64,000 nt of DNA, taken from Bdellovibrionales bacterium. Its GTDB lineage: Bacteria; Bdellovibrionota; Bdellovibrionia; Bdellovibrionales; UBA1609. The first letter of the stretch is position 1; the number at the start of each line of letters is the position of its first letter. A program made the position numbers and the translations under genes. The stretch is taken from assembly GCA_019637855.1 (NCBI GenBank), contig JAHBUX010000007.1, forward strand, positions 62,001 to 126,000, written 5' to 3'. Under the pieces are notes generated by a model. It was not told where the DNA came from. It saw only the letters and a program-made list of their open reading frames with translations, and searched no databases. Positions 14,001 through 39,089 of this stretch are shown here, in pieces.

Positions 14001-17000
14001 CTCCAATTAGTCAAAAAGTCTATCGTGGCGATGGTCGCTCCACCTCGCTTCAGCAAAACAATCAAGTCGTAGAAACAGTCATCGGCGATGCGACCTGGGA
14101 CGGAAACGGACCAATCACCGGAGCCGACGGGACGCCTGCATCTGGGGCATATATCAACAATCCCCGTCGCGTGCGAGTGGCTCCGAATGGAGATATATAC
14201 CTTGTCGACACCTTCAACTATCGCGTAATGCGCATAGACCGGAACGGCTTAATCTATCGCGTGTTCGGTGGAGGTACCGAACCTTTCTCAGAAGGCTTGC
14301 CCGCGACCTCGTTCAATATCTTGAGTGCATTGAACCCTGAACTTAATGATATCGCGTTCTCACCCAGTGGTGAGCTGTACTACGCTCAAGGCTCCAGAAT
14401 AATAAAGGTTGATAGTGCTGGAATTATGCATCTTGTTGGTGGCGACGGAAATCTGCCGTCAACTGTGCCGGCACCGGGCGATGGAGGCTTGGCTCGAGAT
14501 GCCAAGTTCCATACGATTTGGGAAATCAAATTCGGACCCGATGGCAGTTTGTATGTCATGGATGGAGGCGATCAACGCATTCGTCAAATTCGTCCAGACG
14601 GCTATATCGTGGCATTTGCAGGTGGCGGTGAAGGCGGCGATGGCAGCAGAGCCCAAGATGCTAGAATTGCCTTTCCCATGAGTTTCGCAATGTCGAGTGA
14701 TGGCATGGCCTATGTGGCGGGTTCAGATTTGAAGGTTCTTCGCATTCGGCCCGATGGTATAGTTGAAACTTACCTACAAGGCTTTTTCCAAGACCGAAAT
14801 GAGATTACGACTCCACGAGAAATCATCGCAGCCCCCGATGGTTCTCTTTATATTTTAACTCACCCGGATTCGAACTCTCTGCCCAACATTATTCTTAAAG
14901 TTGACCCCGATAAGACCATAACTCGGATTGCCGGCACAGATAGCGGAGGATTTAACGGCGATGGACGTCTGCCGACAGAAACCCAATTCCTCGCGCCTAA
15001 TGGTATGGCCCTCCATCCAGACGGCTCTCTCTTAATTGCGGACACTCAAAACTCTCGTCTGCGTCGCATTCGCTCGGTTCTCCCCGCCTTCTCAGGAGGA
15101 TTGACTACGATTCCGTCACAGGATGGAAGTGAGTACTATTTCTTCTCTGCTTTAGGCCTACATTTAGAAACCCGAGACACCCTGACGGGTGCTATCAAGT
15201 ACAAATTTGAACATGACAGCCACAGTCTTCTGACGAAGATCCATGATCGCACTGGCAATGTGACCGAAATTGTCCGTGACGGCAGCGGAATGGCCACGGA
15301 AATCATTTCTCCTTTTGGACATCACACTCGATTCACATCGGATGCGAATGGATACCTACAGTCGGTCACGAATCCGATGAACGAAAAATATCAGATGTCC
15401 TATGATGGAGACACTGGTCTATTGCTGGAATTTAAAGATGCAAGACAGAACTCGACAACTTTTAACTATGACGAACGCGGAAGGTTGCGTAGAGAAACTC
15501 GTCCAAATCAAGGGTTTTTGGAGCTCCTGCGTGCAGATCTTCAGCGGCCGCGTAAGGGTTACGAAGTTTCAAGATCGACCTCTCAGGGTTATACCGCTCG
15601 GCATCTTGTCGAAAACGATGCTACCGGCAACAAAATGGTTCAAACGTGGGAAGACGGAGGCAGCGGCAGGTTCACTGCGCTTGAAGGTAAACATGAACGC
15701 AAGCGTCGGGACCAAAGCATATGGAACGCCCATCAGGCGCCGGATCCCATTTTTGGCCTGCAGTCTTCCTATTACAGCGCAGAGGCCACCAAACTTCCTT
15801 CTGGTCTCACGCAAGAGGTGTCGCGAAATCGATCCGCCCAGTTTTCTTCAAGCTCCGGCCTTCCAGTGATTGAGTCCCTCTCCCAAGCAACGATGATCAA
15901 CGGGAAAACGTATTCCGCACAATATAGCGGGAGCAACCGTCTACTCCGGCTATCAACGCCAGAGGGACGCCTGAGCCAGATTCAGCTTGATTCTATCGGG
16001 CGTGTATCGGCCTATCAGATTGGAGGCTTGGAACCGGTCAGTCTTTCCTTCAATGCAAAAGGTCTTCTTAGCCAAAGTCAGCAAGGCGCAAGACGTGTTC
16101 AGATAACTTACAATGCGCAAGGGTTGATCGAGGAAACCACAAATGCATTAAATCAGAAGAATCAATTCAGCTACGACCAGGCGGGCCGCATCGAGAGTCA
16201 GCAACTCCCTGATGGTCGCAGTATTGGCTTTTCGTATGACGCAAATGGAAATCTAACCGGAATTACCCCACCAGGGCGTCCGATGCATCAGTTTTTGCTC
16301 AACGCGATGAACCTCGTGAGCTCTTATTTGCCTCCCTCCCTAGGCGCCACCCCGATAAATACAATTTATAGTTACAACTCCGATAGCCAGCTCACGCGCG
16401 TGCAACGTCCTGATGGCCAGGATGTACTGCTTAACTACGACTCGGCTAGGGCACAGCTTCGTTCTATCCAAACGTCTCTCGGAGCCAACAGTTTCAACTA
16501 TTCAAGTGTGACAGGACAGCTTACCTCTCTGAGCTCGTATGACGGGCAAAACGTCGCTCTACAATATGATGGCCCCTTTTCCCGCAGCGAGTCCTGGTCA
16601 GGAGTGGTCGCAGGATTTGTGACCCGCGATCTCAACGCCGACTTTAATGTCGTCAAAGAAGACATCTCTGGCAATATCATTGCCTTCACGTTCGACAATG
16701 ATCGCCTCCTAAAATCAGCTGGTCAGGAGCAGATCACTCGCCATGCAACGACAGCCCAAGTTATAGCTACTCAATTGGGCGGCGTGAATGAGGCTTTCAC
16801 TTACAACAATTTCGGAGAGCTCTTAACTTACTCCGCACCCGGGTTCAGTTCTCAGCTTGTGCGCGACAATCTGGGACGCGTAATTCAAAAAACCGAGACG
16901 GTGCTCTCCTCGACGAATGTATTTGAGTACGGATATGACGACACCGGTCGTTTAACGACCGTCAGACAAAATGGATCGAACACTTCCACCTATGGTTATG

Positions 17001-18085
17001 ACTCGAATTCAAATCGTCTTTCTAGAAACAACACGCTTGCGACCTACGACTCGCAAGACCGTTTGCTCAACTATGGCGGCTTAACTTTTACCTATACCAA
17101 CAATGGAGAAATCCGCACAAAAACGGATTCAGGCGATGTCACCACGTTTGACTATGATGTATTTGGCAACCTCAAGCGTGTGACCCTTCCTAATGGAAGG
17201 GCAATCTCCTACGTCGTGGATGCCTTAAACCGACGTGTTGCAAAGAAGGTAAACGGAACTCTTGTTCAAGGTTTCTTATACAAGGACGGCTTAAGACCGA
17301 TTGCCGAGTTGAATTCTCAGGGCCAGATTTCGAGCGTCTACGTATATGGCGTACGTTCGAACGTACCCGACTATATCGTCAAGCAAGGGGTGATTTACAA
17401 GATCATCTCAGACCATCTCGGCAGTCCTCGCTTGATCATTCGCGCTTCAGATCTTCAAGTCATGCAACGTTTGGAATACAACGAATTTGGCATGGTTGTT
17501 TCAGATTCCAATCCCGGATTTCAACCCTTTGGCTTCGCAGGCGGCCTCTATGATTCGGATACGGAACTCGTACGGTTTGGCGCGCGGGATTACGACCCTG
17601 AGACGGGGCGGTGGACGAGTAAGGATCCGATATTGTTTAATGGTGGGGATACGAACCTTTATGGGTACACTTTCAACGACCCAATCAATCTTATCGACCC
17701 GACTGGGCTGACATGGGAATACAACAATGGCACCGGTCAGTTGACCCATATTGACAATAATACGGGAGTACGGACGCCGGCTGGAACAGGGTATTCTGGA
17801 ACTGGTCAGGGAAGGAATAATCCTGATATGTCTCCAGTTAGCAATGTGGGACCAATCCCAACAGGTTCCTACACGATACGGCCACCTATCAACTCGCCAC
17901 AAACTGGCCCTAACGCACTTCCGCTGAATCCTAATTCAGGCACAAACACCTTTGGGCGCTCCGGCTTTCAGATACATGGCAATAACCCTTCGAACGACGC
18001 CTCTCATGGGTGTATAATCTTGCCACCTGGTGTTCGTAATCAGATAATTAATAGCGGCGACAATGATCTTAACGTGGTGAACTAA
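11081..18085 (+). CDS. Secreted RHS/YD-repeat polymorphic toxin with Tlde1-like C-terminal domain
   Basis: The protein has 2334 residues. It starts at TTG 11081 after GGGAG, with a signal peptide (residues 1-23). Two PKD domains follow (about 165-250 and 343-425), a carboxypeptidase-regulatory-like fold (about 483-560), NHL-type repeats (about 1000-1350) and YD repeats (about 1370-2150). The RHS core end is GARDYDPETGRWTSKDPI and NDPINLIDPTGL, after which the sequence turns variable, as in all RHS toxins. The last ~125 residues carry H2299 and C2311 in HGNNPSNDASHGCI, the active-site pattern of Tlde1/DUF2778 L,D-transpeptidase-like toxins, which attack peptidoglycan precursors in the periplasm. 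No PAAR or VgrG part is present, so export is Sec-dependent and delivery is unknown. The exported protein encoded next is the likely immunity factor. Confidence 0.88.
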   Translation: MGKITRKLVVLGFLFSSRYALATTPTPQVVFGPKVFRASILKPSYQNSGFSVSNPALSPGRLLITNGTGYVKPPNPCPRFDGRNLIQILTCNLSNLANVAKVALTRATDLEIVLNGHIVVAPQNFNIKTSQLILSVALQTNNEIKVKIRGLPTAYVTIQIDRTTSSNQAPLANFTVTPGPATDPLNYSFDGRTSSDPDGTLTSYLFDFGDGNQAQTSAANHRFDSIGTYNVTLTVTDNKGAQNSKVAQVNVQDTRPPILTINSPSEGANLNSTSVQISGSADEPLREVTARGEMLVLGADLKSFSGTVTLSPGANTIPFVATDLAGNSTTVNRHVTLSINRPPLASFTIKTKGGIAPLLATFDASQSTDPDGHSLTYAWDFGDGGTDVGAFVSHIFNSTGTFDVKLKVTDSAGESAIRTSQVVVTQANLPPDPTTIAPTISFKGVSLVSESLNFLITGTNPVQTGVLTGALDTRRQTLLRGRVLAANGQPLSAVQVSAIGQPQLGKTLTRTDGYFDLVINGGGAIHLEFLRNGYLPVHRRIESLWRDMNHITNVVMTPLDSKVTRIKLSSMSLQAVEGSVVTDERGPRKALVLSPAGNSASMILPGGGSVSTDNLSIRITEYTVGDNGRKAMLADLPPHSAYTYAIEMSADEAIAAGAVRIDFEKPLVYYVENFVGLAPGSAVPSGYYDRESVSWKAEEDGIIVKILSVQNGSATISFDGTSAATAQRISEFGITNAELAMLGSKYTAGQELWRIPIAHFSGWDFNYPFSLPPDATDPNGGPVLASNDLPDPNGPNLCQGSIIEVENQVLGESLAITGTPFRLMYRSDRVKGTPLANSIDIELAGDISSMPSLRSVLLNVTAAGNQFSQEFTNPTSYQKTTYSWDGRDAYGRTFFGARNAQVSIDFRYQGEYVGGAYDKIVRSFGQLSSGTGVSKAPIYGLIDVNRRYNVSLESKDSRVFGLGGWGIDAYHFYSPISQKVYRGDGRSTSLQQNNQVVETVIGDATWDGNGPITGADGTPASGAYINNPRRVRVAPNGDIYLVDTFNYRVMRIDRNGLIYRVFGGGTEPFSEGLPATSFNILSALNPELNDIAFSPSGELYYAQGSRIIKVDSAGIMHLVGGDGNLPSTVPAPGDGGLARDAKFHTIWEIKFGPDGSLYVMDGGDQRIRQIRPDGYIVAFAGGGEGGDGSRAQDARIAFPMSFAMSSDGMAYVAGSDLKVLRIRPDGIVETYLQGFFQDRNEITTPREIIAAPDGSLYILTHPDSNSLPNIILKVDPDKTITRIAGTDSGGFNGDGRLPTETQFLAPNGMALHPDGSLLIADTQNSRLRRIRSVLPAFSGGLTTIPSQDGSEYYFFSALGLHLETRDTLTGAIKYKFEHDSHSLLTKIHDRTGNVTEIVRDGSGMATEIISPFGHHTRFTSDANGYLQSVTNPMNEKYQMSYDGDTGLLLEFKDARQNSTTFNYDERGRLRRETRPNQGFLELLRADLQRPRKGYEVSRSTSQGYTARHLVENDATGNKMVQTWEDGGSGRFTALEGKHERKRRDQSIWNAHQAPDPIFGLQSSYYSAEATKLPSGLTQEVSRNRSAQFSSSSGLPVIESLSQATMINGKTYSAQYSGSNRLLRLSTPEGRLSQIQLDSIGRVSAYQIGGLEPVSLSFNAKGLLSQSQQGARRVQITYNAQGLIEETTNALNQKNQFSYDQAGRIESQQLPDGRSIGFSYDANGNLTGITPPGRPMHQFLLNAMNLVSSYLPPSLGATPINTIYSYNSDSQLTRVQRPDGQDVLLNYDSARAQLRSIQTSLGANSFNYSSVTGQLTSLSSYDGQNVALQYDGPFSRSESWSGVVAGFVTRDLNADFNVVKEDISGNIIAFTFDNDRLLKSAGQEQITRHATTAQVIATQLGGVNEAFTYNNFGELLTYSAPGFSSQLVRDNLGRVIQKTETVLSSTNVFEYGYDDTGRLTTVRQNGSNTSTYGYDSNSNRLSRNNTLATYDSQDRLLNYGGLTFTYTNNGEIRTKTDSGDVTTFDYDVFGNLKRVTLPNGRAISYVVDALNRRVAKKVNGTLVQGFLYKDGLRPIAELNSQGQISSVYVYGVRSNVPDYIVKQGVIYKIISDHLGSPRLIIRASDLQVMQRLEYNEFGMVVSDSNPGFQPFGFAGGLYDSDTELVRFGARDYDPETGRWTSKDPILFNGGDTNLYGYTFNDPINLIDPTGLTWEYNNGTGQLTHIDNNTGVRTPAGTGYSGTGQGRNNPDMSPVSNVGPIPTGSYTIRPPINSPQTGPNALPLNPNSGTNTFGRSGFQIHGNNPSNDASHGCIILPPGVRNQIINSGDNDLNVVN

Positions 18086-21407: not shown

Positions 21408-21426
21408 AAATGGGGCGATCGACGGG
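21408..21426. repeat. Attachment site repeat (tRNA-distal end of the element)
   Basis: AAATGGGGCGATCGACGGG occurs here and again at 30392-30410, where it forms the 3' end of tRNA-His plus flanking bases. A 19-bp identical repeat of a tRNA 3' end at the far end of a region that contains an integrase gene is the classic mark of site-specific integration. Confidence 0.88.
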
Positions 21427-21476
21427 TGAGTCTGTAAAATCGCCCACTTACCCATGCTTTGCACGAGAAGTCTCAC

Positions 21477-22613
21477 CTAAAGACCTATAGGCTTGAGTTC
21501 GTAGACGGTCGCCGTAGCTTCAGGCTCCGGTATTAAGTTAAGACGATCCGTAGCCCCTTCCACATCGACAGCCGCAAAGCGAAGATAGTGTTGAAATGAC
21601 TTTATGCTCGTCCAACCACCGAGTTTCATGGTCTTCGGTATGCCGACCCCACTCTGTAGACAGTGGGTCGCAAAACAAGAACGCATAGCATGAAAATGAA
21701 TCTCGGTAATTCCAATGGACCGGCAGAAGTCGCGTAACACCTTTGCCGCCTCACCGCGCCTCCAAGATGCGATTCTGGGCAATACATATCCGGTACGCTC
21801 AGTCTTCAACTTCAATTCTTTGAGTAAAGTTTCAAGTTGCGGACTAATTGGGACATAACGCCACTCATTTGTCTTCGTGGACTTCACTTTGTCGAGGCGA
21901 GCTGAGTAAGACTTCGAGACCAAAATAAGTCGCCGCTCGAAATCTATGTCAGTCCATTCCAGAGCCCACAACTCACCCGACCGGCAACCCGTGTTGAAGC
22001 CGAGTATCCAGACATAGTAGTATTCGTGTTCGAGCTCACGCGCCTTATTGAGAAGCACAAGAATCTCACTACGATTTAATACAGGCTGCATCTTCGCCTC
22101 CAACTTTGGAAGGCCCACGCCTCGCCCTGGGCTCTCTAAATGAGGAGGCAGCAAGCGCATCAGCCCTGCCCAGTCGAAAACTGCGTTGACTGCTCCGCGC
22201 ACGGATTTCATACGACTTCGCGACAACCCTCTGCTCTCCATCTCGTTAAAAACCTGCTTCATTGATATGGGGCGGAGCTGATCGACGGGAACAGGCATCC
22301 ACGCTTTCGTGTGTTTAAGAAGACTATTGTACCCATCGATTGACGTCGTCGTACTTCTTGGTTCGCCGTTCAAAAGAACATCACGATGCCATTTCCGTAG
22401 AAGGTCTCTCCAGGTAAGACCGTTGCGTTCGCGCTCAAGGCGCTGTCGCAGCACCTCTTTCTTCAGGAGGGTATGTTCCCGTTGAGCTTCTGCGCGTGAG
22501 ACTGCACCTAGGTCACGCTGCATACGGGACGTGGAGTCAGGGGTACGACCTTTGGAAATGCATCGAATAAAAAAACAAGTCTGACCATCTTTGACGTAAG
22601 TTTGAATTGCCAT
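21477..22613 (-). CDS. Tyrosine integrase of the tRNA-His element
   Basis: The protein has 378 residues and belongs to the phage integrase family. An N-terminal SAM-like DNA-binding domain (about 66-160) precedes the catalytic domain, which has R211 (GCRSGELWALEW), H308-x-x-R311 (HAMRSCFATH) and the nucleophile Y343 (SFQHYL). The position usually held by a second histidine or lysine is Gly in LGGWTS. It begins 2 bp after the excisionase gene, whose product would favour excision. The gene ends 50 bp from the attachment repeat, and recombination between that repeat and the tRNA-His 3' end is its expected reaction. Confidence 0.93.
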   Translation of the reverse strand: MAIQTYVKDGQTCFFIRCISKGRTPDSTSRMQRDLGAVSRAEAQREHTLLKKEVLRQRLERERNGLTWRDLLRKWHRDVLLNGEPRSTTTSIDGYNSLLKHTKAWMPVPVDQLRPISMKQVFNEMESRGLSRSRMKSVRGAVNAVFDWAGLMRLLPPHLESPGRGVGLPKLEAKMQPVLNRSEILVLLNKARELEHEYYYVWILGFNTGCRSGELWALEWTDIDFERRLILVSKSYSARLDKVKSTKTNEWRYVPISPQLETLLKELKLKTERTGYVLPRIASWRRGEAAKVLRDFCRSIGITEIHFHAMRSCFATHCLQSGVGIPKTMKLGGWTSIKSFQHYLRFAAVDVEGATDRLNLIPEPEATATVYELKPIGL

Positions 22614-22615
22614 AA

Positions 22616-22840
22616 TTAGGCTCCTTCCGTCTCGATAAGATGGTCGATCTCGTCACGTTTATAACGCCATCTTCCCCCGAACTTTCTCGGAGTAAGCTGG
22701 CCTTTGTAGACCATGTTACGAACGTTATTTGGGCTCGTACCTAAATACGCAGCAACTTGGTCCGTACACATCCAACCTTGAGTTTTCAAAGAGCTTTCCA
22801 ACGTTGTAGGTCTGGGAACGTTTGTTGTCATCCGTTTCAT
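22616..22840 (-). CDS. Excisionase-like helix-turn-helix protein
   Basis: The protein has 74 residues with one winged-helix/MerR-like HTH (CTDQVAAYLGTSPNNVRNMV, then a basic wing GGRWRYKRDEIDHLI). This is the helix-turn-helix type 17 (AlpA/excisionase) pattern: it binds DNA near an attachment site and directs the integrase. It overlaps the nuclease gene upstream by ATGA and is followed by the integrase after 2 bp, so all three are co-translated. It could regulate its own operon as well. Confidence 0.82.
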   Translation of the reverse strand: MKRMTTNVPRPTTLESSLKTQGWMCTDQVAAYLGTSPNNVRNMVYKGQLTPRKFGGRWRYKRDEIDHLIETEGA

Positions 22841-23532
22841 ACTTTTAACCCCTGAGAACAGAAAAGAGTGGGAGAAAGAGCGAATATGCGCGCGAGTTGA
22901 TGATCGCTACCGTGACAGAGAAGAGTGACCAACTGAAAACGGTCCCTCAATCGATCGCGGTCGCGTGAGCAGAGTGGTTTGAATTCTTTAATAACCCGAG
23001 AACGAGTTGGAAAGACCCAATCGTACTCATAGACCTGCGAATCTTTTAAACGCCATACGGAAATGCCAAGAGATTCAAGATACCCCTCTTTATGTATGTC
23101 CTTGCGGGCCTTTGCTGGCCGCAAGTGAGCACCACCATCAATCTCAAACACAATGCCCTTAGTGATGAAACCGCGACCTTCGTTCTTTTTTTGTCCCAGT
23201 CCATCCGTAAAAAAGTCGACACACAAATTGCCGATCCAAACCTGTTCTTGAAGAATCAAACGCCATGTATAGGCGAACTTGCGTTTGAAATCGTGTTCAG
23301 ATGGAGTAACGATCATTTCGGCGGACTGACTACGGGCCAATTCCTTGCAAACTATCTCATAGCTTTCACAAAGATGGCCAAAGTCGCGGATACGACGGCT
23401 AAGTGCTTTCACCAAATTTAGGCGACTATTCTTCTTTGAAATTTTCATTGCAATCGCGAGCTCGTTTGACCTCGATAAAAAACGCGCCCATACCGCCTGC
23501 TCAATCTTAATTTCTCTCTCTAGCTCACTCAT
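22837..23532 (-). CDS. DUF559/PD-(D/E)XK nuclease-like protein coupled to xis and int
   Basis: The protein has about 231 residues. The C-terminal half has the pattern of Vsr/DUF559-type nucleases: a conserved segment from SEHDFKRKFAYTWRL to VDFF, the acidic core IVFEIDGGAHL, then KDIHKEGYLESLGISVWRL. The core D/E and later charged residues fit a metal-dependent nuclease, though I cannot prove activity. The N-terminal ~75 residues are helical and charged. ATG 23532 has GGAAG just upstream; the longer TTG start is less likely. It is translationally coupled to the excisionase and integrase. A nuclease in such an operon could help recombination, attack competing elements, or act in defence; all of this is inference. 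Confidence 0.68.
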   Translation of the reverse strand: MSELEREIKIEQAVWARFLSRSNELAIAMKISKKNSRLNLVKALSRRIRDFGHLCESYEIVCKELARSQSAEMIVTPSEHDFKRKFAYTWRLILQEQVWIGNLCVDFFTDGLGQKKNEGRGFITKGIVFEIDGGAHLRPAKARKDIHKEGYLESLGISVWRLKDSQVYEYDWVFPTRSRVIKEFKPLCSRDRDRLRDRFQLVTLLCHGSDHQLARIFALSPTLFCSQGLKV

Positions 23533-23558
23533 CGTTTCTTCCAATACTTAGAATAAAG

Positions 23559-23605
23559 AAAACCCAGCCGTGGCACTGAAGCCCGGTTAGGAACGACTGG
23601 GTTTT
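23559..23605 (-). terminator. Terminator after the AlpA-like gene
   Basis: AAAACCCAG and CTGGGTTTT form a 9-bp stem around a larger loop; on the minus strand the stem is followed by TTTTCTTTATTC. It lies 40 bp downstream of the AlpA-like gene and just before the nuclease-xis-int operon. Confidence 0.65.
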
Positions 23606-23644
23606 CAAATGTTTATCGTCTTGCTCTAGGAAATTCGTCTCACG

Positions 23645-23848
23645 CTAGGAGCCGGAATTTTTGGCTTCCACTTCGACGAGCCAGCGATCGACCTCTGACT
23701 TTTTGTAGCGGATCATGCGTTCCGAGAGACGTACTGCTTTCGGGCCATCGCCTTTGAGACGCCATGCCTGAAGCGTGCGTTGCTTGATGCCGATGCGGCG
23801 AGCGACCTGACCTTCAGTCATGTACTCAGAATTTTCATTGTCGTTCAT
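23645..23848 (-). CDS. AlpA/MerR-like DNA-binding protein
   Basis: The protein has 67 residues with one helix-turn-helix (MTEGQVARRIGIKQRTLQAW) and a basic wing region (RLSERMIRYKKSEVDRWL), the type 17 HTH seen in AlpA-like activators of mobile elements. A perfect AGGAGG site precedes ATG 23848; the open frame further upstream is not needed. AlpA-type proteins often switch on the integrase operon or excision. Here it is encoded directly upstream of the nuclease-xis-int operon but separated from it by a terminator, so it would act in trans on that operon's promoter. Confidence 0.8.
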   Translation of the reverse strand: MNDNENSEYMTEGQVARRIGIKQRTLQAWRLKGDGPKAVRLSERMIRYKKSEVDRWLVEVEAKNSGS

Positions 23849-23923
23849 GGTGTCCTCCTTACCTTGTTGAACGTCTACATCCAGGATGTAGTTCAATCAG
23901 ATGAGGCAAACTATTTGAGAAAA

Positions 23924-23943
23924 TCCCCCGAGCGCTCGGGGGA
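23924..23943 (-). terminator. 20-bp perfect palindrome terminator
   Basis: TCCCCCGAGCGCTCGGGGGA is a perfect palindrome followed on the minus strand by TTTTCTC. It lies 17 bp after the gene ending at 23960. A second inverted repeat (AAATCCC/GGGATTT) overlaps that gene's end. Confidence 0.7.
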
Positions 23944-23959
23944 CCATTTAAAAATCCCT

Positions 23960-24697
23960 TTAGCGCTTTCGGGATTTCTGTGAGCCGAACATTTCGACTT
24001 TTATGGCCGAGATCTGCTTTTCAATCATGCGATGGGTGCGCGGCCATTCCTCTTCCGCTCCAAATGGCCGAAACACAAGCCTGTCCTTCGATTTCTTATG
24101 AATGATTCGCAGAGGAATGGATTGAAAAGAGGTCGCCTGAAGTTCCTCAAACTTTTCTGGATCGATGACGCCCAAATACACGTCTTGATTCTTTGAAGTA
24201 GGTCGCTTTTTGAATTGGTCGCGAATCACCCGATCGAACACTTCGACTATCCGTGCCTCCATCTGCTTTCGACGGTTAGCCTTGGCCATCGTCTGCGCAG
24301 GTCTCAAAGGCGGGTTCCCTCCATCCTGAATTCGATCACTCAGCCGACTAAAAGCCATGCCGAAAACTGCCGCTTGGGCCGAAGATGTTTCTGGCGCAAG
24401 AATAGTCAGGGCAACTCGGTGCGCGAGCCACAAGTTGATAAACAGAAGACGCTCACTGGCCGCTGCGCCCTTTGGAAACAGATTGAACAACCTATTAAAC
24501 CCTTCGTTCTCGATTTCAAAATCGACGTTGCGAAGTTCAAATTCAACCTGCTTGCTCGACAACCCCGTTTCGGAATCGAGATTGAGATTACGCCACTCGA
24601 AACTGTGTTTCTTCGCAAGATCATCCATGCGAGTCTCATAGGCATGGAGGGACATCTCAATTTTGTCACGATAGTGCGCTTGAATCCGATCCGACAT
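23960..24697 (-). CDS. Hypothetical protein of the integrative element
   Basis: The protein has about 245 residues and starts at ATG 24697 behind GGAGGGG. It is mainly helical, charged and soluble, with no signal peptide or membrane segment. The C-terminal third is rich in basic residues (MAKANRRKQMEARI, later IIHKKSKDRLVFRPFG and KSRKR at the end), which hints at nucleic-acid contact. I do not recognise a family. It is monocistronic, ended by a strong palindromic terminator, and lies between the recombination genes and the restriction-modification part. It might be a replication or partition factor, but nothing seen decides this. Confidence 0.65.
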   Translation of the reverse strand: MSDRIQAHYRDKIEMSLHAYETRMDDLAKKHSFEWRNLNLDSETGLSSKQVEFELRNVDFEIENEGFNRLFNLFPKGAAASERLLFINLWLAHRVALTILAPETSSAQAAVFGMAFSRLSDRIQDGGNPPLRPAQTMAKANRRKQMEARIVEVFDRVIRDQFKKRPTSKNQDVYLGVIDPEKFEELQATSFQSIPLRIIHKKSKDRLVFRPFGAEEEWPRTHRMIEKQISAIKVEMFGSQKSRKR

Positions 24698-24822
24698 TCC
24701 CCCTCCAAGGTCGTCATTTATTATCACTCAACATCAGAAGAGCCAAGCAATGACCTGTCTGCCGCACTAGTAGTCCATTTCGGCCCATTCACAGGGAGTC
24801 AGATGTTGGATAGATTCAGGGG

Positions 24823-25074
24823 ATGCGCAAGCCTCAAAAACCAGCGAAAAGCCGCCCAATAAAGTATGTCGATAAGTTGGATAGAATTCTGATGATGGTC
24901 GCGAAGGCCGCTCTCTTGGACGGCGAATACGAAGTCGCATTCAGCATTCGATCTATCGCAATTGAAAGGTTGGTACACAGATGGGGACAGAAAAACAAAA
25001 CGAAGCCAATCGACAGAACGCGCAACGAAGCACCGGCCCCCGGACCAACGAAGGAAAACGGACTTCATCTTTAA
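24823..25074 (+). CDS. Small hypothetical protein overlapping the next gene
   Basis: The protein has 83 residues and starts at ATG 24823 with AGGGG directly before. The N-terminal 30 residues are basic and the middle is helical (LMMVAKAALLDGEYEVAFSI). The last 31 codons overlap the start of the following gene in another frame. The overlapped gene has a recognisable N-terminus, so this smaller one could be a leader gene coupled to it. I do not know a family, and confidence is limited because of the overlap. Confidence 0.45.
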   Translation: MRKPQKPAKSRPIKYVDKLDRILMMVAKAALLDGEYEVAFSIRSIAIERLVHRWGQKNKTKPIDRTRNEAPAPGPTKENGLHL

Positions 25075-25607
25075 ACGCACTCAAACACGGCCTGTTCGCG
25101 CGCATTCACATCTTGCCAAGTGAATCCGTCGAAGACTTTCAAAACCTTGAGGCGAGCCTTAGAGATGAATTAAAACCCCAATCGCTATTGCAGGAGATCT
25201 ACTTCTCAAAGATAGTTGAGATACTTTGGAGAATGAGACGCGTAGAAATGATTGAAGCAGGCTTGTTCAAAGGCCTTATCGACTCAGCGCAATACGAAAT
25301 CTTGTTAGCCATGGCTAGAGGGGACAACCGCACGCTGGCGACCACCCCACTTATCGAAACACAGACGATGGCCGAAGGTTCACCAAATGGACATGCGACG
25401 GCCTACGCTCCGTCGTCAACACATGAACAGGTCTTGTTCGAGCTTAGTAAAATTTCTTTTGAGAGCCGAGAAATGGCGATGGTTGTAGGAAAGCAAATTG
25501 GAAGAGAGTCAGGCGAAGGAATTGATCGACTTTCAAAATACGAACGCCATCTAATCTCTATGCTAAATAGTCTGATTAATTCTTTTGAAAATTGCAGGTC
25601 CGATTAG
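24981..25607 (+). CDS. Conserved hypothetical protein with STGPRT-GK-NALKHGL motif
   Basis: The protein has 208 residues. Its N-terminus shows a motif known from many short bacterial proteins of unknown function: NRQNAQRSTGPRTNEGKRTS followed by LNALKHGLFA. The remainder is helical (EIYFSKIVEILWRMRRVEMI) with a flexible middle. Members of this group occur in many mobile and genomic contexts, sometimes annotated as small-terminase-like, but no function is proven. The stop overlaps the end of the convergent methyltransferase gene by 4 bp. Confidence 0.72.
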   Translation: MGTEKQNEANRQNAQRSTGPRTNEGKRTSSLNALKHGLFARIHILPSESVEDFQNLEASLRDELKPQSLLQEIYFSKIVEILWRMRRVEMIEAGLFKGLIDSAQYEILLAMARGDNRTLATTPLIETQTMAEGSPNGHATAYAPSSTHEQVLFELSKISFESREMAMVVGKQIGRESGEGIDRLSKYERHLISMLNSLINSFENCRSD

Positions 25608-27442
25608 ACAGCTGCAACAAAACTCTTTACTCGTTCATAATCGAGCAAGACTGGGTCGAACTTCTCTGTAGCACACCGGCGAACCAGATAATTGTAGAAA
25701 TCAGCGACAATGAACTTACTTTCGTCAGGATTGATACCTGCTCGGGAAAACGCAGACCACGCCCTCTTCAGAACTTTCTCGGGACTCTCTGTTTGGGCGC
25801 GGGATGTAGACTGACTACGCTTGTTGGTGACTACCACCTCAAAAACGACATCTTTGGTGGAGACATTCTCTTGTCCCAATGCCGATTTGTTACCCTTAAA
25901 AGACTTTTGAACCTTATCCAGCGAATGTGCCCCAACGACCTTTAAGCCTGCCGCAGACATAGCCTCTATCAGGGACGCCCAAACCTTTCCATCGGTGCTA
26001 TTGAATACAATGTGAGCCTTACCACCGGGCTTCAATACGCGAGACATCTCAGAAAACGAGTTCCGCATCATCTCGGAATAGTGGGAGAGAGATTTTCCCC
26101 CTGCTTTTTCTTTCAGAGACTTGTTAACTACAGCTTCTGTGCTGAGATTCGTGAGTTGGCCCAACCAAGCCTCAGCAAGGATATTGCAGTCGGCGTAAAA
26201 GATATTAGAGCCGAAAGGTGGATCCGTAAAAATGTAGTCAATCGACCTACTTTTCACATGCTCCAGATCCAACGCAGACGCCTTGGATATGGTAACGGAG
26301 CTTTTTGTCGAAACTCTTTTAAGGGCATCATAGTAGTCACATAGTGTCTCAATTTTATTTGCGAAAATCTTGTACACATTCCCCTCGCTAATAAGTTGGG
26401 GAATATACAAGGTGCCAGTTAGCGGACGATGTCCACCTTTAGAATTGTAGCGCCTCATCTTAGATCCATGCCATGAGGTATTCGTAAAGGCGAACATAAG
26501 CGCAGCTCGGATTCGTTTGTCTTTAACTAATTGAATCCTTTTGTGCAAACGAGTGAGAGCAGAGAGGTTTCGGTCGGAATAAAAGTCTGAAACGTTAGAT
26601 ACCTTGTGAAGATGGAGAGCCGATCGAATATACATTTCCCTATCTTCGCTAACAGGCACATCCGAGACTGGTGATTTGCGCCTTGCTCTGTACTCAAACT
26701 GTTCACTTCGACTTTTACCAATTTGAAGCTTCTTCAGACTTTTAGAGTTCTTCTCCCAGTAAGAAGCGAATACGGGTCTCGATCCGAGCAAATCCAACTG
26801 AGATGTCTTGCACTTGTGCTTGCAGTTCGGACAAACAGCTGTTTTCTTCGTATGTAAATCGTCTCCGACAATGAATTCCCAAACAGTCGCAGACTTTCCA
26901 CAGGATCCACATTTGACAATATCCGAGACGACTAAGAAATTTAGCTCGCATACTTTGCCATCTATCTTAACTTCATATTCGTTCTTTTCTTCAGTTACAT
27001 CGTGAAGAACCAATTCAGCCTGCTTCTTTAACTCAATTGGATCGCAATTCCGCACATGATTAGCAGAGAGGTGCAGTGCCAATGATCCAATGTCAGAAAT
27101 TTCAGCATTTCTACCAGTCAGCTTAGCGGCAAGACCCGTCATTCCCGATCCGCAGAATGGGTCCATCACGGTATCGCCAGGCTTTGTATTCTTGAGAATA
27201 AAATCTGCGATATTCTCAACAGGTATTTTTGTGGGATACGAATGCGCGACGTAGAATATCGAGCCTTTCTTATTTCCTGACTTCCCGATCAAACCTAAAG
27301 TCTCGGGCGACATAGAGTTCAATCCAGAACGATCGAAGCCTTCCAAGAAGTCAGTGCTCGAATACACTTCAGTGAAGAAGCTATCCGTCTCAATAAAAAA
27401 CAACTTCCTAGATTTTTGGGGGAATGGCTGATTCTTTGACAT
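25604..27442 (-). CDS. DNA methyltransferase with zinc ribbon (modification subunit)
   Basis: The protein has about 612 residues from ATG 27442 (the frame is open to GTG 27499). The AdoMet-binding motif I is VMDPFCGSGMTG (about 91-102) and the catalytic motif IV is TDPPFG (about 406-411); motif I comes first with a long insert between, an alpha-type order. The insert contains a four-cysteine zinc ribbon (CGSC and CPNC, about 179-206) and probably the target-recognition region. It should methylate DNA bases (adenine N6 or cytosine N4). The gene is divergent from the PD-(D/E)XK endonuclease-like gene, so the two form a likely type II restriction-modification system. The target sequence is unknown. 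Confidence 0.88.
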   Translation of the reverse strand: MSKNQPFPQKSRKLFFIETDSFFTEVYSSTDFLEGFDRSGLNSMSPETLGLIGKSGNKKGSIFYVAHSYPTKIPVENIADFILKNTKPGDTVMDPFCGSGMTGLAAKLTGRNAEISDIGSLALHLSANHVRNCDPIELKKQAELVLHDVTEEKNEYEVKIDGKVCELNFLVVSDIVKCGSCGKSATVWEFIVGDDLHTKKTAVCPNCKHKCKTSQLDLLGSRPVFASYWEKNSKSLKKLQIGKSRSEQFEYRARRKSPVSDVPVSEDREMYIRSALHLHKVSNVSDFYSDRNLSALTRLHKRIQLVKDKRIRAALMFAFTNTSWHGSKMRRYNSKGGHRPLTGTLYIPQLISEGNVYKIFANKIETLCDYYDALKRVSTKSSVTISKASALDLEHVKSRSIDYIFTDPPFGSNIFYADCNILAEAWLGQLTNLSTEAVVNKSLKEKAGGKSLSHYSEMMRNSFSEMSRVLKPGGKAHIVFNSTDGKVWASLIEAMSAAGLKVVGAHSLDKVQKSFKGNKSALGQENVSTKDVVFEVVVTNKRSQSTSRAQTESPEKVLKRAWSAFSRAGINPDESKFIVADFYNYLVRRCATEKFDPVLLDYERVKSFVAAV

Positions 27443-27551
27443 ATTCCGTAGCTTTAAGTCTACGGCCTGGCGAATCAGAGATGAACTTCTGTAGAGCACC
27501 TCGCTTTAGATCAGTGTTTTTGTCCAGATAGATTTAGGTCCGGTCCAGATC

Positions 27552-29048
27552 ATGCCGACAAATATTGATAAGCATTTGGTGGTTTCAGCAATGGCAAACT
27601 TCCCGTATGGCGCAGAATTTAGTCCAGACGTCTTTGATCTGCAAAAGGTCATCGCGCTGATTTCAGCCGCATCCGGGTCCAGCGATAAGCTGAAGAGCCT
27701 AATCAGGACCAAGTACTGGAACAAGCCCGGCAGGTCAGCTCGATCCTCGATCATTCTCTCAATGAACACATACCTATCAATAAAATCGTACGGACTCATC
27801 GAAGAGACTTCCCGCTCAAATTTTATTGAAACCCCTCTTCTATCCTCTATGAAAATGCAGACATCTTCTCAGGGAATGATAGACGAATTGAATCGATTTT
27901 TAATTGCTAGCCGTGAAGGATTTGTATTTCTCAAGATTCTGGAGGCACTGAAGGCACAAGACATTTCAATCACTATGACATCAATCAACGCGGAACTTAC
28001 GAAGTGCGGATACACAAATGTCAACTCGACAAACAAATACATATCTACAATGCGGGCATGGCTTTCTAAGTCCAATTTGTTCAAGGGGGATTCCTACGAT
28101 GTTAATTGGGCCAATGTGCATAGTCTCTTGGGACTTTCTGGAGATGAACTAGAGAAATACTTGGATGTTACCACCGATCAGTTAAATTTTTTGCGAGCTT
28201 TGGTTGCTATTGGTGGTTCATCAGTTCCGGTCAATGCGGTCTGCCAATATTCACGAGAAACACTCAACTGCGCTCTGCCGGAAAAAAACCTATCCACGCA
28301 GGTTATAAGGCCGCTGGCTGAACTTGGTTATATTGGTCTCCAAAAACGTACTGCCGGGCGCGGAGCCAAGCCTCATGCAGTATCACTAAAGACAAATGCG
28401 AAGACCAAGCGGCTCCTCGAATTACTTGGCCAACTTCAAAATTTGCCAGCGGACCTGCGCGTAGCAATTGCTTTCCCCTTGAAGGACATTCTTGTCTCGA
28501 TTGATTCATCGGATAAATACAAAAAGGGAGTTGCCCTAGAGCATTTGGCAATTTGGTTTACGAGGGCACTTGGACTGTCTTTCTTAGAATGGCGAAGCCG
28601 ATCTACCGATACGGGCGGCGCTGAAGTGGATGTTCTTGCGGAACGCCGCCTGCTAACTCAAGAGCGTTGGCAAATTCAATGTAAGAACACTCAAAGCTCA
28701 ATTGGGAGCGAGGTCATAGCAAGAGAAGTGGGGTTAGCCGTAGCTTCTGGTAACGACGTAATTCTGATAGTGACGACAAGCCAGTTCTCTACAAACGCAA
28801 AAAGCTTTTGCCGAAAAGTACATCAGCGCTCCATGCTGAAAGTCATTCTCCTCGATAGCGATGATTTAGTCGCAATTAAAGACAATCCACATCTGGTAGG
28901 AGCAATAGTCGCGCAAAAGGCGGTTTCCTCGGAGGGGCACATTGAGGAAATTAATATCCATTTGGAAGCTCAGAAATTAAGTGCGACCAAGGTTAAAAAA
29001 TCAGTCAAAAATGCAATTTCGGAAAAAGCAAAAAAGGAAATTAAGTAG
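27552..29048 (+). CDS. Restriction endonuclease-like protein (Mrr-like PD-(D/E)XK)
   Basis: The protein has 498 residues. The C-terminal third holds a PD-(D/E)XK fold: LEHLAIWFTRALGLSF, then GGAEVDVLAE with the metal-binding D360, then WQIQCKN with Q376-x-K378, followed by a helix (VIAREVGLAVASG) and IVTTSQFS. This D-QxK arrangement is typical of Mrr-type nucleases. The N-terminal ~300 residues are helical and probably bind DNA, including a winged-helix-like part near 215-280. It is divergent from the methyltransferase with about 110 bp between the start codons, the usual layout of a restriction-modification pair. The last ~30 residues are Lys-rich. Confidence 0.82.
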   Translation: MPTNIDKHLVVSAMANFPYGAEFSPDVFDLQKVIALISAASGSSDKLKSLIRTKYWNKPGRSARSSIILSMNTYLSIKSYGLIEETSRSNFIETPLLSSMKMQTSSQGMIDELNRFLIASREGFVFLKILEALKAQDISITMTSINAELTKCGYTNVNSTNKYISTMRAWLSKSNLFKGDSYDVNWANVHSLLGLSGDELEKYLDVTTDQLNFLRALVAIGGSSVPVNAVCQYSRETLNCALPEKNLSTQVIRPLAELGYIGLQKRTAGRGAKPHAVSLKTNAKTKRLLELLGQLQNLPADLRVAIAFPLKDILVSIDSSDKYKKGVALEHLAIWFTRALGLSFLEWRSRSTDTGGAEVDVLAERRLLTQERWQIQCKNTQSSIGSEVIAREVGLAVASGNDVILIVTTSQFSTNAKSFCRKVHQRSMLKVILLDSDDLVAIKDNPHLVGAIVAQKAVSSEGHIEEINIHLEAQKLSATKVKKSVKNAISEKAKKEIK

Positions 29049-29250
29049 CAGAACTCAATAGGCTAATATTGGGGTAAAATCTGCTGTAGTATTCAGCCAA
29101 AAGACTTCTTTTTCGTTCCAGCAAATTTGAGTCAGAATTGCCTTCTGGATAAATTTCTAAACTATTGAGTGACTCGATCTTCTCGCGCAATAGTCGCATT
29201 TCAACGGCTAACTCAACGTCAGAAAGATCCTTTAGATGCCTAGTCCCCAT
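29041..29250 (-). CDS. Small hypothetical protein
   Basis: The protein has 69 residues, mostly one or two helices (LSDVELAVEMRLLREKIESL) with charged surfaces; a short coiled coil is possible. It overlaps the end of the endonuclease gene by 8 bp in convergent orientation. The ribosome site before ATG 29250 is weak. No family is recognised. It could be a small regulator, but the evidence for it being expressed is only its length and composition. Confidence 0.45.
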   Translation of the reverse strand: MGTRHLKDLSDVELAVEMRLLREKIESLNSLEIYPEGNSDSNLLERKRSLLAEYYSRFYPNISLLSSAT

Positions 29251-29408
29251 GGGAAAGTTACTAGCACTCTGACCCCCAAATTAGAAACACTTAGTAACAG
29301 GACGCACAGCGACGCTTTGCGGTAAATCCATCCGAGTACTCAAGTAAGCCTTAGAGTTCCGTATTGAAATCGAGGTCCGATTGCCGAATTAATTTCGGAC
29401 GACTTAGC

Positions 29409-29792
29409 TCACTTCTTTTTAAGAGTCTGAATCACCTTAACTGCCTCTGCGGCCTCTTCTTCACTAAGTTCGCGGCTGATGTAGCACCCCTCAGCAGCGT
29501 TAAACTTGCGCTTATGGGCAGATTCGTCGGCTTTCAGTGCGGCCCTATATTGCGCCATACGTTCCACGACAACTCGACCTGCCTCGTTAGCATCTGAGAG
29601 ATTATATGCTCCACTCACACGAGCGATCTTCTTCTCTTTCGAGATCACCAAAGCTGCACGGAGGGCTGCCTGCCAGTGTTCGCAAATAACCTCCGCTGAC
29701 TCCTCTTCTGAAGTCAACTCACCACCATTTACCACGGGTCGCTCAGCCCACGCAGCTTTCATACCCAACACCGTCAACAGTATCGCGATCAT
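29409..29792 (-). CDS. Exported hypothetical protein
   Basis: The protein has 127 residues from ATG 29792, which has GGAGG at good spacing. The N-terminus is a signal peptide (MIAILLTVLGMKAAWA, cleavage after AWA). The mature part is helical and strongly charged, with many Glu, Lys and Ala residues and two cysteines (VICEHW, GCYIS). The gene follows the XRE regulator after 4 bp, so they are co-transcribed. An exported helical protein under a dedicated repressor is unusual for a small integrative element. Function unknown. Confidence 0.7.
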   Translation of the reverse strand: MIAILLTVLGMKAAWAERPVVNGGELTSEEESAEVICEHWQAALRAALVISKEKKIARVSGAYNLSDANEAGRVVVERMAQYRAALKADESAHKRKFNAAEGCYISRELSEEEAAEAVKVIQTLKKK

Positions 29793-29796
29793 ACAT

Positions 29797-30093
29797 CTAC
29801 CTCCGTCTTCGTCGATCAATTCGGTGGACCGTCACACGCACGTCACCGGAGAACAACTCTCTCAAGACTTCTTCCCCCAGCGATTCAAACGGATCTTGTT
29901 CGCCGTAAAGTAGGAAGTGGACCGACACTTCCAGCACGCGCGCGACTTTCTGAAGTTGCTCGACATTCACCGATCTCCGCCCCAGCGTCCAATTGTGAAG
30001 TGTTTGTTTGGGCACACCGGCCCGCCGCGCGAGTTCCGCGAGTGAAATACCTTTCTGCTTACAAACTGCTGACAAATTTGCACCCAACTTCAT
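29797..30093 (-). CDS. XRE-family repressor
   Basis: The protein has 98 residues from ATG 30093 (GGAGA before it). Residues about 3-60 form a Cro/CI-type helix-turn-helix: ANLSAVCKQKGISLAELARR, then VPKQTLHNWTLGRR and VEQLQKVARVLEVSVHFLL. The C-terminal ~35 residues end in five arginines (RIDRRRRR). Three similar 16-bp inverted repeats lie 43-120 bp upstream of its start, so it most likely binds there and represses its own operon, which includes the exported protein. It may also keep other element genes quiet. Confidence 0.85.
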   Translation of the reverse strand: MKLGANLSAVCKQKGISLAELARRAGVPKQTLHNWTLGRRSVNVEQLQKVARVLEVSVHFLLYGEQDPFESLGEEVLRELFSGDVRVTVHRIDRRRRR

Positions 30094-30135
30094 CCATTCT
30101 CCGTCTCGGTAAAAAAATGAAGCCCGTTGACGACA

Positions 30136-30213
30136 ATCCCTCTTCAGGGACGACCGTCCGCGCCTAGGGACGGTATCGAACCACAATGGCCGAAGCCGTC
30201 CCTAAACAGGGAC
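30136..30213. promoter_or_regulatory. Three operator-like repeats upstream of the XRE repressor
   Basis: Three 16-bp sites share the pattern RTCC....AGGGAC: ATCCCTCTTCAGGGAC (30136-30151), GTCCGCGCCTAGGGAC (30156-30171) and GTCCCTAAACAGGGAC (30198-30213). The first and third are near-perfect dyads; the middle one keeps only the outer bases. Starts are 20 and 42 bp apart, about two and four helical turns, so a bound repressor would sit on one face. The rest of the 30187-30394 stretch shows no gene. Confidence 0.72.
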
Positions 30214-30391
30214 AAACTCAGGTTGGATAAACGACGACCACCGCCACTCGGTTTCACCTTGGTTGCACCAAAAGTTTCACCAAGCGCCGTTTTTCATCGT
30301 GTTGTTTTGTGTTGCACAAACGCGCGAGAACGAAGCCATCGAATCTGAGACTGTTAAATGATTTCGTTAATTTGCGTTTTTAGAGAGAGGT

Positions 30392-30410
30392 AAATGGGGC
30401 GATCGACGGG
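30392..30410. repeat. Attachment site repeat in the tRNA-His 3' end
   Basis: AAATGGGGCGATCGACGGG here covers the CCA end, acceptor 3' strand and the first T-arm bases of tRNA-His. It is identical to 21408-21426, the other end of the element. Confidence 0.88.
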
Positions 30411-30471
30411 GCTTGAACCCGCGACAACCGGAATCACAATCCGATGCTCTACCAACTGAGCTACGACCGCC
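30395..30471 (-). tRNA. tRNA-His (GTG)
   Basis: The minus strand folds as a complete tRNA: acceptor stem GCGGTCG with CGATCGC, the TAGCTCAGTTGG D arm, an anticodon loop TTGTGAT with anticodon GTG, and the T loop TTCAAGC. A G at position -1 opposite C73 is specific for tRNA-His, and CCA is encoded. Its 3' end is the attachment site of the integrative element and is intact here. The stretch 30472-30598 upstream of it shows no gene. Confidence 0.97.
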
Positions 30472-37859: not shown

Positions 37860-39089
37860 CTACAGGCTGTTTAAATAAAACTTCAGCTCGTCTTTCATTT
37901 GCTTGGTTTGGCCCATTAGTTCGCTTCCAATACCGTCAATTTCTTTTAGCGACGATTTAAGCGCTGTTTTGAAATCCATCAGGCCCTCCAACAACCCCAG
38001 AATGTCGGCTGATGCACCTTTCACTTTAACGGCTTCTACTTTGCCGGTTATGCCCACGATATCGAGTGCGGTCGTAAGTTTGCCAATCTCGCGGAAGATG
38101 CCCGTAAATTGCTGAAATACGGACTCAACAGCAGTGAGGCTTTTCTGAGTTTGCTCGATTCCCTTTTTCCCGAGACCTTGAAGCAGCGTCATTTCGAGGC
38201 TCTTGTCTAAGGGGGTCTCTTTTACTTCATTCGTGAAAAAATCAACCAGCTCTTTTGTCAGAATCAAATTACAAACATCAAACTGGCAGGTCTGAACGTT
38301 CTCTTTGATGGAGTTGCCAAGGTTTCCTGAGCTCAAAAACTTCTCTGTTTCTGCCTGAATCTGTTTAGAGATCTCGTCATATTGCGAAGAAACGATAGAA
38401 ATGGTCGCGGCCTCCTGACCTATTTTTGCCGCCTGAACTTCTAAGTTCAAAGGAACAAAAGCCACCTTTTGGTAGGCCAAAGATATTTCTTCACATTTCT
38501 TTTGTAGCTCTTGGCCAAGGCTTAAAATCTTTCTCAGTTTTAAAAGAGCACCGATGGGTTCAAGATCTAAAGATTGTTGGCGGCATTCAATCTCTTTTGT
38601 CAGAGCTTCAGTCATGAAATGGCTGTAGTCGTCGAAACCGAGCTTTTGTATTTCTTGAAGCAAGATTGCTTGCGAATCTTTGGGGGACAAACTTTGCGTC
38701 TTTTCCAACTCTAAAAGTTCGGCATATTTTTGTTTTACGACCTCAAAAATAGGACTGCTTGGCTTCAGTCGAATGGAAAGAAATCCGTCATCAATGGGTG
38801 AGGCCAAAGCATAGACCCAGTAATAAGAGCCATCTTTCGACTTGTTTACGACATAAGCACCGACGGGCTTGCCATTTAAAATCATTTCCCAGAACAAATG
38901 AAAGACCCCTCTTGGCATGGCAGGGTGTCTGATAATGTTATGAGGTCGTTTTAGAATTTCGTCCCATTCATATTTACTGACCCTTTGAAAAATCGAATTT
39001 GCGGATTGAATGATGCCTTTTCGATCTGTCCGCGAAAAAAATAGTTCATCAAATTTGAAATCACTTTCACGCTCAAAGAAGGAACTCAT
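37860..39089 (-). CDS. PAS-domain signalling protein (Aer-like, without membrane anchor)
   Basis: The protein has 409 residues. The N-terminal part (about 14-120) is a PAS domain of the Aer/MCP type: RTDRKGIIQSANSIFQRVS, then RHPAMPRGVFHLFWEMI and SKDGSYYWVYALASPI, the usual flavin-binding layout. The rest is long helices (coiled-coil), ending in an MCP-like helical region, but I cannot identify the conserved MCP hairpin tip (EIxxIVxxI-type). There is no transmembrane segment, so this is a soluble signalling protein, perhaps a cytoplasmic redox sensor. It has no obvious operon partner; the next genes upstream are a toxin-antitoxin pair. Confidence 0.8.
   Translation of the reverse strand: MSSFFERESDFKFDELFFSRTDRKGIIQSANSIFQRVSKYEWDEILKRPHNIIRHPAMPRGVFHLFWEMILNGKPVGAYVVNKSKDGSYYWVYALASPIDDGFLSIRLKPSSPIFEVVKQKYAELLELEKTQSLSPKDSQAILLQEIQKLGFDDYSHFMTEALTKEIECRQQSLDLEPIGALLKLRKILSLGQELQKKCEEISLAYQKVAFVPLNLEVQAAKIGQEAATISIVSSQYDEISKQIQAETEKFLSSGNLGNSIKENVQTCQFDVCNLILTKELVDFFTNEVKETPLDKSLEMTLLQGLGKKGIEQTQKSLTAVESVFQQFTGIFREIGKLTTALDIVGITGKVEAVKVKGASADILGLLEGLMDFKTALKSSLKEIDGIGSELMGQTKQMKDELKFYLNSL

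Follow-up and report, generated by a model that had tools for sequence, protein, structure and literature searches.

Does the DNA that adjoins a tRNA-His gene in a Bdellovibrionales bacterium constitute an integrative element, and if so, of what kind? We addressed this question in a 64,000-nucleotide stretch of contig JAHBUX010000007.1 (positions 62,001 to 126,000 of the forward strand, assembly GCA_019637855.1; hereafter called the window), which is part of a 3.37-Mb, 26-contig genome. An initial annotation, made from the sequence of the window, had proposed a compact, defence-carrying element inserted in tRNA-His. Our analyses indicate that the region is very probably an integrative element, compact at 8,984 bp, that entered the 3' end of the tRNA gene by recombination, in the manner proposed below. 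This interpretation is supported by an exact, tRNA-anchored repeat, by an intact integrase and excisionase module and, mostly, by relatives with the same layout. The element is a new example of a familiar kind, within a wider group found in related bacteria.

Identical 19-bp repeats (AAATGGGGCGATCGACGGG), as first annotated, are present at positions 21408-21426 and 30392-30410, with a spacing of 8,984 bp. The tRNA-proximal attachment repeat (30392..30410) consists of the final 16 nt of the tRNA-His (GTG) gene and 3 flanking nt. This gene, found by ARAGORN and the Rfam tRNA model at 30395..30470 (minus strand), would be the integration target, restored by the element. Repeat comparison placed the identical tRNA-distal copy at 21408..21426, where it constitutes a displaced 3' tRNA fragment in the same orientation as the tRNA gene, and an intact tyrosine integrase gene lies between the two copies. 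The 16-nt core of the repeat occurs exactly twice in the whole genome, at both ends of the element. Among 200 sequences of 30 kb generated by a first-order Markov model, the longest chance match to the 55-nt 3' region of the tRNA was 14 nt (mean 10.2).

From the tRNA outwards, the element encodes an XRE regulator, proteins of 136 and 69 residues, an Mrr-type endonuclease, a methyltransferase, proteins of 208 and 255 residues, an AlpA-like regulator, a DUF559 protein, an Xis-like protein (putative excisionase) and the integrase (Int), followed by the far repeat. The XRE, AlpA, DUF559, Xis and Int genes are all oriented away from the tRNA. The initially proposed integrase, excisionase, AlpA-like and XRE regulators and restriction-modification (R-M) pair were all borne out by family matches, and we add the DUF559 protein (22837-23544) and the exported-looking 136-residue protein, neither of which it had named. 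The intact integrase (378 residues, 21477..22613, minus strand; Phage_integrase, 4.7e-21) aligns to solved XerA/XerC-like recombinases across the region of the R, HxxR and Y residues, which we take to be catalytic, and only 50 bp separate its stop codon from the distal repeat. Also on the minus strand are the genes for the Xis-like helix-turn-helix (HTH) protein (22616..22840; HTH_17, 4.4e-13; TIGR01764), the DUF559-like protein (22837..23544; Pfam 9e-4, just short of the Pfam cut-off), the AlpA-like HTH regulator (23645..23896; HTH_17, 7.4e-9, and Phage_AlpA, 8e-5), which has a homologue in the genome designated G028, and the XRE/Cro-CI regulator (29797..30093; HTH_3, 1.4e-12), which is 66% identical to the XRE protein of G028 encoded next to tRNA-His. 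Judging from the homologues, the XRE gene probably starts at 30093 rather than at the mechanical open reading frame (ORF) start, 30186.

Relatives were sought in 140 genomes of the order Bdellovibrionales (hereafter designated by G numbers), 124 of which yielded some integrase match. The closest integrases are found in G028, which has two (61% and 46% identity), in G007 (approximately 60%) and, as a broken copy, in G008. In a tree of 44 integrases, that of the window groups with those of G007 and the two of G028, with support values of 100/99. The gene order in G028 is that of the window, namely tRNA-His, the XRE gene, a variable stretch and then AlpA, DUF559, Xis and Int. Further on, this locus contains another stretch, which encodes a UG5-nitrilase reverse transcriptase, and then the second integrase, which is the one at 61%. 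Relatives with the layout of the window are located at tRNA-His, tRNA-Asp, tRNA-Cys, tRNA-Ser and tRNA-Met genes.

We surveyed the position of the integrase in 48 joined loci, including the window, most of them collected from the best integrase matches and a few from DUF559 matches. All 17 tRNAs present in these loci were tested on both strands; most of the other loci contain no tRNA in the stretch examined and are uninformative either way. Seven of the 17 tRNAs have a repeat of their 3' end of at least 12 nt that encloses an integrase of the family: tRNA-His in the window, G018 and G039, tRNA-Asp in G101:C58, tRNA-Cys in G080:C16, tRNA-Ser in G061 and tRNA-Met in G087. The integrase is at the tRNA-distal end in 7/7 and reads away from the tRNA; the distance of its aligned part is 54-853 bp to the repeat and 4.4-34.9 kb to the tRNA. 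The distal position pointed out by the initial annotation is a trait of the integrase family of the window. No repeat was found for another seven of the 17 tRNAs, and that of G008 does not enclose the G008 integrase. Longer repeats, at tRNA-Glu of G058 (46 nt) and tRNA-Met of G087 (40 nt), stem from elements that have an integrase of another class in a tRNA-proximal position.

The tRNA-proximal end harbours candidate binding sites for the integrase. Three phased direct repeats, GGTGAAAC/GGTGCAAC/GGTGAAAC, in steps of 12 and 11 bp, are located at 30251..30283 (minus strand), with a score of 22 of 24 that was reached in 0/60 shuffles. We looked for three copies of an 8-nt motif spaced by 10-12 bp within 200 bp starting 40 bp past the tRNA; this test was not blind, the motif having been spotted by eye beforehand. 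All 11 left ends of the family, the one of G026 being a remnant, scored 18-24 of 24, values equalled in no more than 2 of 60 shuffles. Control tRNA-His ends scored 12-16, with triple repeats in 0/13, two of these controls (G014 and G016) sharing some tens of bp with the left end of G018. We propose that these helically phased repeats are probably arm-type sites of the integrase.

A palindrome search revealed three potential operators within 78 bp ahead of the XRE gene, at 30198..30213 (GTCCCTGTTTAGGGAC), 30156..30171 (two mismatches) and 30136..30151. The window contains no other GTCCCTNNNNAGGGAC-type palindromes with up to two mismatches. Their number alone is unremarkable, with 1.55 expected and at least three in 18 of 100 shuffles, and the evidence is therefore their clustering ahead of the XRE gene. 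The two best ones are the sole exact matches genome-wide, and similar palindromes precede the XRE genes of G028 and G137.

DUF559 relatives were found in seven of the 140 genomes. In the window, G028 and G016, the DUF559 gene directly precedes those of Xis and Int, and in G076, DUF559 and an Xis-type HTH form a single ORF of 330 residues followed by Int (G076:C17, L121:8660-9652). In G058, DUF559 also precedes an Xis-like HTH, recognized by eye, and an integrase that belongs to another class. The integrase of G104 adjoins DUF559 with no HTH between them, and the stretch of G024 examined contains no integrase. DUF559 accompanies two classes of integrases, tRNA-distal and tRNA-proximal. The residues D110, E134, D136 and H140 are invariant in an alignment of seven sequences, from which we read them as putatively catalytic; the link of DUF559 to Vsr-like nucleases is our assumption. 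Structure prediction of the protein was unusable (predicted local distance difference test, pLDDT, of 38). A search of the genome collection with a three-sequence DUF559 alignment yielded one locus, in a metagenome-assembled genome of Pseudobdellovibrio. We found no description of DUF559 with an integrase and an excisionase as a module in a limited literature search. We consider it rather doubtful that these elements represent an undescribed Bdellovibrionales family of small mobile defence carriers with a Vsr-like DUF559 nuclease as a working part of the recombination module; in that case, the nuclease might act on the excised form or keep competing elements from inserting at the same tRNA.

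The central part of the element supports its description as defence-carrying. The genes of an Mrr_cat restriction endonuclease of 498 residues (27552..29048, plus strand; Pfam 1.2e-13) and an N6/N4 DNA methyltransferase of 631 residues (25604..27499, minus strand; N6_N4, 5.5e-20; PADLOC MTase_II, 1.3e-134) are adjacent and divergent. A search of the phylum (367 other genomes) at an E-value of 1e-15 revealed no relatives of the endonuclease. Its homologues on two plasmids, of Roseivivax and Haloplanus, are beside DNA methyltransferases in both cases, which supports the assignment as an R-M pair; the nearest plasmid relatives of the methyltransferase itself share 42% identity and have another gene context. 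The MADS system, with MAD1-MAD2 and further mad genes, was not found in the element, which shows only sub-cut-off NCBIfam similarity of the HTH and methyltransferase kind and weak PADLOC matches.

In other members of the family, PADLOC models are matched by a reverse transcriptase of the DRT type, a primase-reverse transcriptase and a protein of the RelA/SpoT type. The cargo of G028 includes the UG5-nitrilase reverse transcriptase (L066:15231-18347; PADLOC, 701 bits) and a CapP-like protein, and that of G007 the primase-reverse transcriptase and a weakly SIR2-like protein. The G007 primase-reverse transcriptase (L180:5161-9879) is a 1572-residue protein with DNA primase small-subunit and reverse transcriptase domains and only remote PADLOC DRT matches. 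In the tRNA-Asp element of G101:C58, a 950-residue RelA/SpoT-domain protein (L131:2774-5626) is possibly an abortive-infection toxin. Beside the element in the window, a PKD/Rhs-YD/teneurin-like protein of 2334 residues (11081-18085, plus strand) harbours a C-terminal Tlde1 domain (Pfam 1.5e-11) and is a candidate antibacterial effector.

The remaining ORFs lack informative family matches. The ORF of 136 codons (29409..29819, minus strand) overlaps the end of the XRE gene and has no family in Pfam or NCBIfam; its hydrophobic N-terminus predicts that the protein is probably exported. A fixed pairing of XRE with an exported protein was considered and rejected, as the enrichment (13 of 18 XRE genes versus 261 of 599 control pairs, or 44%; P 0.013) is weak and the test loose, the 18 genes being those of the window (29409-30186) and of 17 relatives; the exported proteins that closely follow XRE are unrelated. 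The 69-residue ORF (29041..29250, minus strand), with no Pfam family, may be spurious. No family was found in Pfam, NCBIfam or PHROGs for the ORF of 208 residues (24981..25607, plus strand), and no homologue in the order's other 139 genomes searched for that of 255 residues (23960..24727, minus strand), whose AlphaFold model was unusable (pLDDT 37).

The initial annotation had suggested searching relatives for an empty tRNA-His site. In the three congeners G001, G002 and G003, the tRNA side is indeed syntenic, with a glycosyltransferase gene, a FecR-like gene and the tRNA gene, and it is the far side that failed to appear, as the left flank of the element was not found at the tRNA-His locus of any of the three. 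Past the tRNA, G001 and G003 have other sequences, whereas the contig of G002 stops approximately 250 bp on. Within the genus, no more than remote relatives (26-29%) were found for the gene on the left side of the element. In G001, two genes located about 2-3.5 kb past tRNA-His (L024:8595-10242) look like an AbiE toxin-antitoxin by eye. In the G018 island, the 58 nt from the far repeat onwards match the sequence directly after tRNA-His in G023 (83%, 1.7e-7), and from this alignment we read G018 as the occupied and G023 as the unoccupied site of a family member. G023, G026 and G028 have a window-type left end in common, which corresponds to the sequence past the far repeat of G018, so that G018 looks like a case of serial integration at one tRNA-His. 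The distal repeat in G018:C9, near position 38030 of the joined locus, closes a 36-kb island resembling an integrative and conjugative element (ICE); past it lies what remains of a window-type left end. We rejected G020 and G022 as empty sites for G028, as the downstream similarity is limited to 230 bp, corresponding to a short gene judged AbrB-like by eye, and to a remote XRE gene.

Several observations weigh against the interpretation as an integrative element. The exact empty site for the window element was not found in the three congeners. The GC content of the element (43-51%) is lower than that of the right flank and similar to that of the left flank. Two of the seven tRNA-anchored repeats, in G018 and G080:C16, are only 12 nt long, which is the maximum reached by shuffled sequences (10 shuffles each). 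In G028, which has the same core genes, no copy of the tRNA end of at least 10 nt is present within 2.5 kb of either integrase, nor of at least 12 nt in 37 kb. Taken strictly, this is the finding of the same genes without the flanking repeat that the initial annotation had regarded as contrary to its proposal, in one relative. The G007 integrase is 8 kb from a tRNA-like 3' fragment of only 47 bp that adjoins tRNA-Met. It follows from G028 and G007 that decayed or displaced relatives are common.

The following mechanism is proposed for the integrative element. The boundaries, the intact integrase and Xis-like gene, the restored tRNA and the relatives of the same anatomy are read from the sequences themselves. 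The integrase would recombine a short core sequence located where the tRNA has its T-stem/acceptor end, assisted by the three phased arm sites that the element carries immediately inward of its tRNA-proximal boundary. The attachment site of the excised form, attP, would lie between the 3' end of the int gene and the XRE promoter, and it is for this reason that int would land at the tRNA-distal end. By binding to the three operators ahead of its own gene, the XRE regulator would keep the element quiet, and the AlpA-like and Xis proteins would shift it towards excision as a circle, leaving the predicted empty-site junction tRNA...CCCCATTTTCTTACCC. The R-M pair may guard the host against phage or plasmid DNA and make the loss of the element costly. 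Given the lack of recognizable transfer genes, spreading is most likely mediated by a phage, a conjugative element or uptake, and this route is the least certain step of the mechanism.

Among the alternatives, an integrative mobilizable element, transferred by a conjugative helper acting via an oriT or an unrecognized relaxase encoded in an ORF without a family, seems unlikely but deserves consideration first. Hitchhiking elements are described (PMC11389934), and the G018 and G039 islands of 30-36 kb, which look ICE-like by eye, combine the same integrase family with the same tRNA-His. However, no relaxase, coupling-protein or type IV secretion family was matched in Pfam or NCBIfam for the ORFs of the element, among which small ORFs without a family remain, and the 255-residue protein, whose predicted model was unusable, has no homologue in the 139 other genomes searched. 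At the DNA level, the plasmid collection gave no match to the element.

We find it somewhat less plausible that the element is a phage satellite packaged by a helper phage, like P4-like elements or phage-inducible chromosomal islands. Its 9-kb size, the AlpA-like, Xis and Int genes and the XRE regulator with several proposed operators would fit, as would two relatives of the same layout in which Int is preceded by a Prim-Pol primase (G101:C58) or an AAA ATPase (G133:C7). Nevertheless, the scanned ORFs matched no packaging, capsid-hijacking or capsid-size, or helper-linked or helper-sensing family in Pfam, PHROGs and NCBIfam. As initially stated, structural and conjugation genes are lacking as well, no such family being matched in these databases (10 ORFs against PHROGs, methyltransferase excepted); the packaging- or tail-labelled matches are only weak matches of two small HTH proteins. 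The integrase had no match in the IMG/VR viral contigs, none of the 261 viral stretches matching DUF559 patterns was confirmed, and the phage integrases among the matches listed share only 22-27% identity with that of the element.

We consider it less likely still that the region is a fixed defence island, formerly mobile, that has lost its ability to excise. No empty site was found, and the relatives in G008, G028, G026 and G023 are broken, reduced to the left end or devoid of the far repeat. Against this, the Int and Xis ORFs of the window are intact, the repeats are identical, and the proposed arm sites and operators are present. Finally, a chance repeat or small duplication around ordinary chromosomal genes, with which the GC content of the left flank and the missing empty site would agree, is hardly credible given a match of 19 exact nt, when 200 random sequences yielded 14 at most, an integrase 50 bp from the repeat and the same layout in relatives.

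Predatory bacteria of the order Bdellovibrionales are also hosts to phages, and the movement of immune genes among them is little described in the literature that we searched; in particular, a limited search returned no description of such elements in Bdellovibrio. The integrative element of the window belongs to a family of compact elements, located at tRNA-His and further tRNA genes, in which the integration module and the layout stay the same and the defence cargo varies. New defence genes could be sought between the XRE and AlpA genes of its members. The recurrence of the DUF559-Xis-Int module, fused in one case, prompts the question, which can be tested, of whether a nuclease takes part in recombination by tyrosine integrases. 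Both this module and the combination of a constant layout with varying defence cargo merit further attention.

How does the element compare with known systems? P4-like and other AlpA-bearing satellites possess AlpA, Xis and Int and have a similar size; the window element shares these features, and one of its relatives a Prim-Pol, but it differs from P4-like satellites by the lack of recognized packaging or capsid genes and of a primase. Tycheposons are characterized by a tRNA, a tyrosine recombinase and satellite hallmarks. On the Roseivivax plasmid NZ_CP090156.1, an Mrr-type endonuclease with 31% identity to that of the element adjoins a DNA methyltransferase gene, as it does here, whereas the gene order of the element is divergent. 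The tRNA islands as defined by Islander consist of a tRNA gene, a displaced 3' fragment in the same orientation and a tyrosine integrase between them, over 2-200 kb, with the crossover in the T-stem or junction part (PMC4383910). The window element shares the tRNA, the displaced fragment and the enclosed integrase with these islands, and its family is set apart from those of that description by the consistently tRNA-distal integrase and the short core of 12-19 bp. G028 and other survey members resemble the window element in the XRE gene beside the tRNA, the AlpA-DUF559-Xis-Int order and the related integrases, and differ from it in cargo, namely the UG5-nitrilase reverse transcriptase and CapP-like protein in G028, the primase-reverse transcriptase in G007, the RelA/SpoT-type protein in G101 and the R-M pair in the window.

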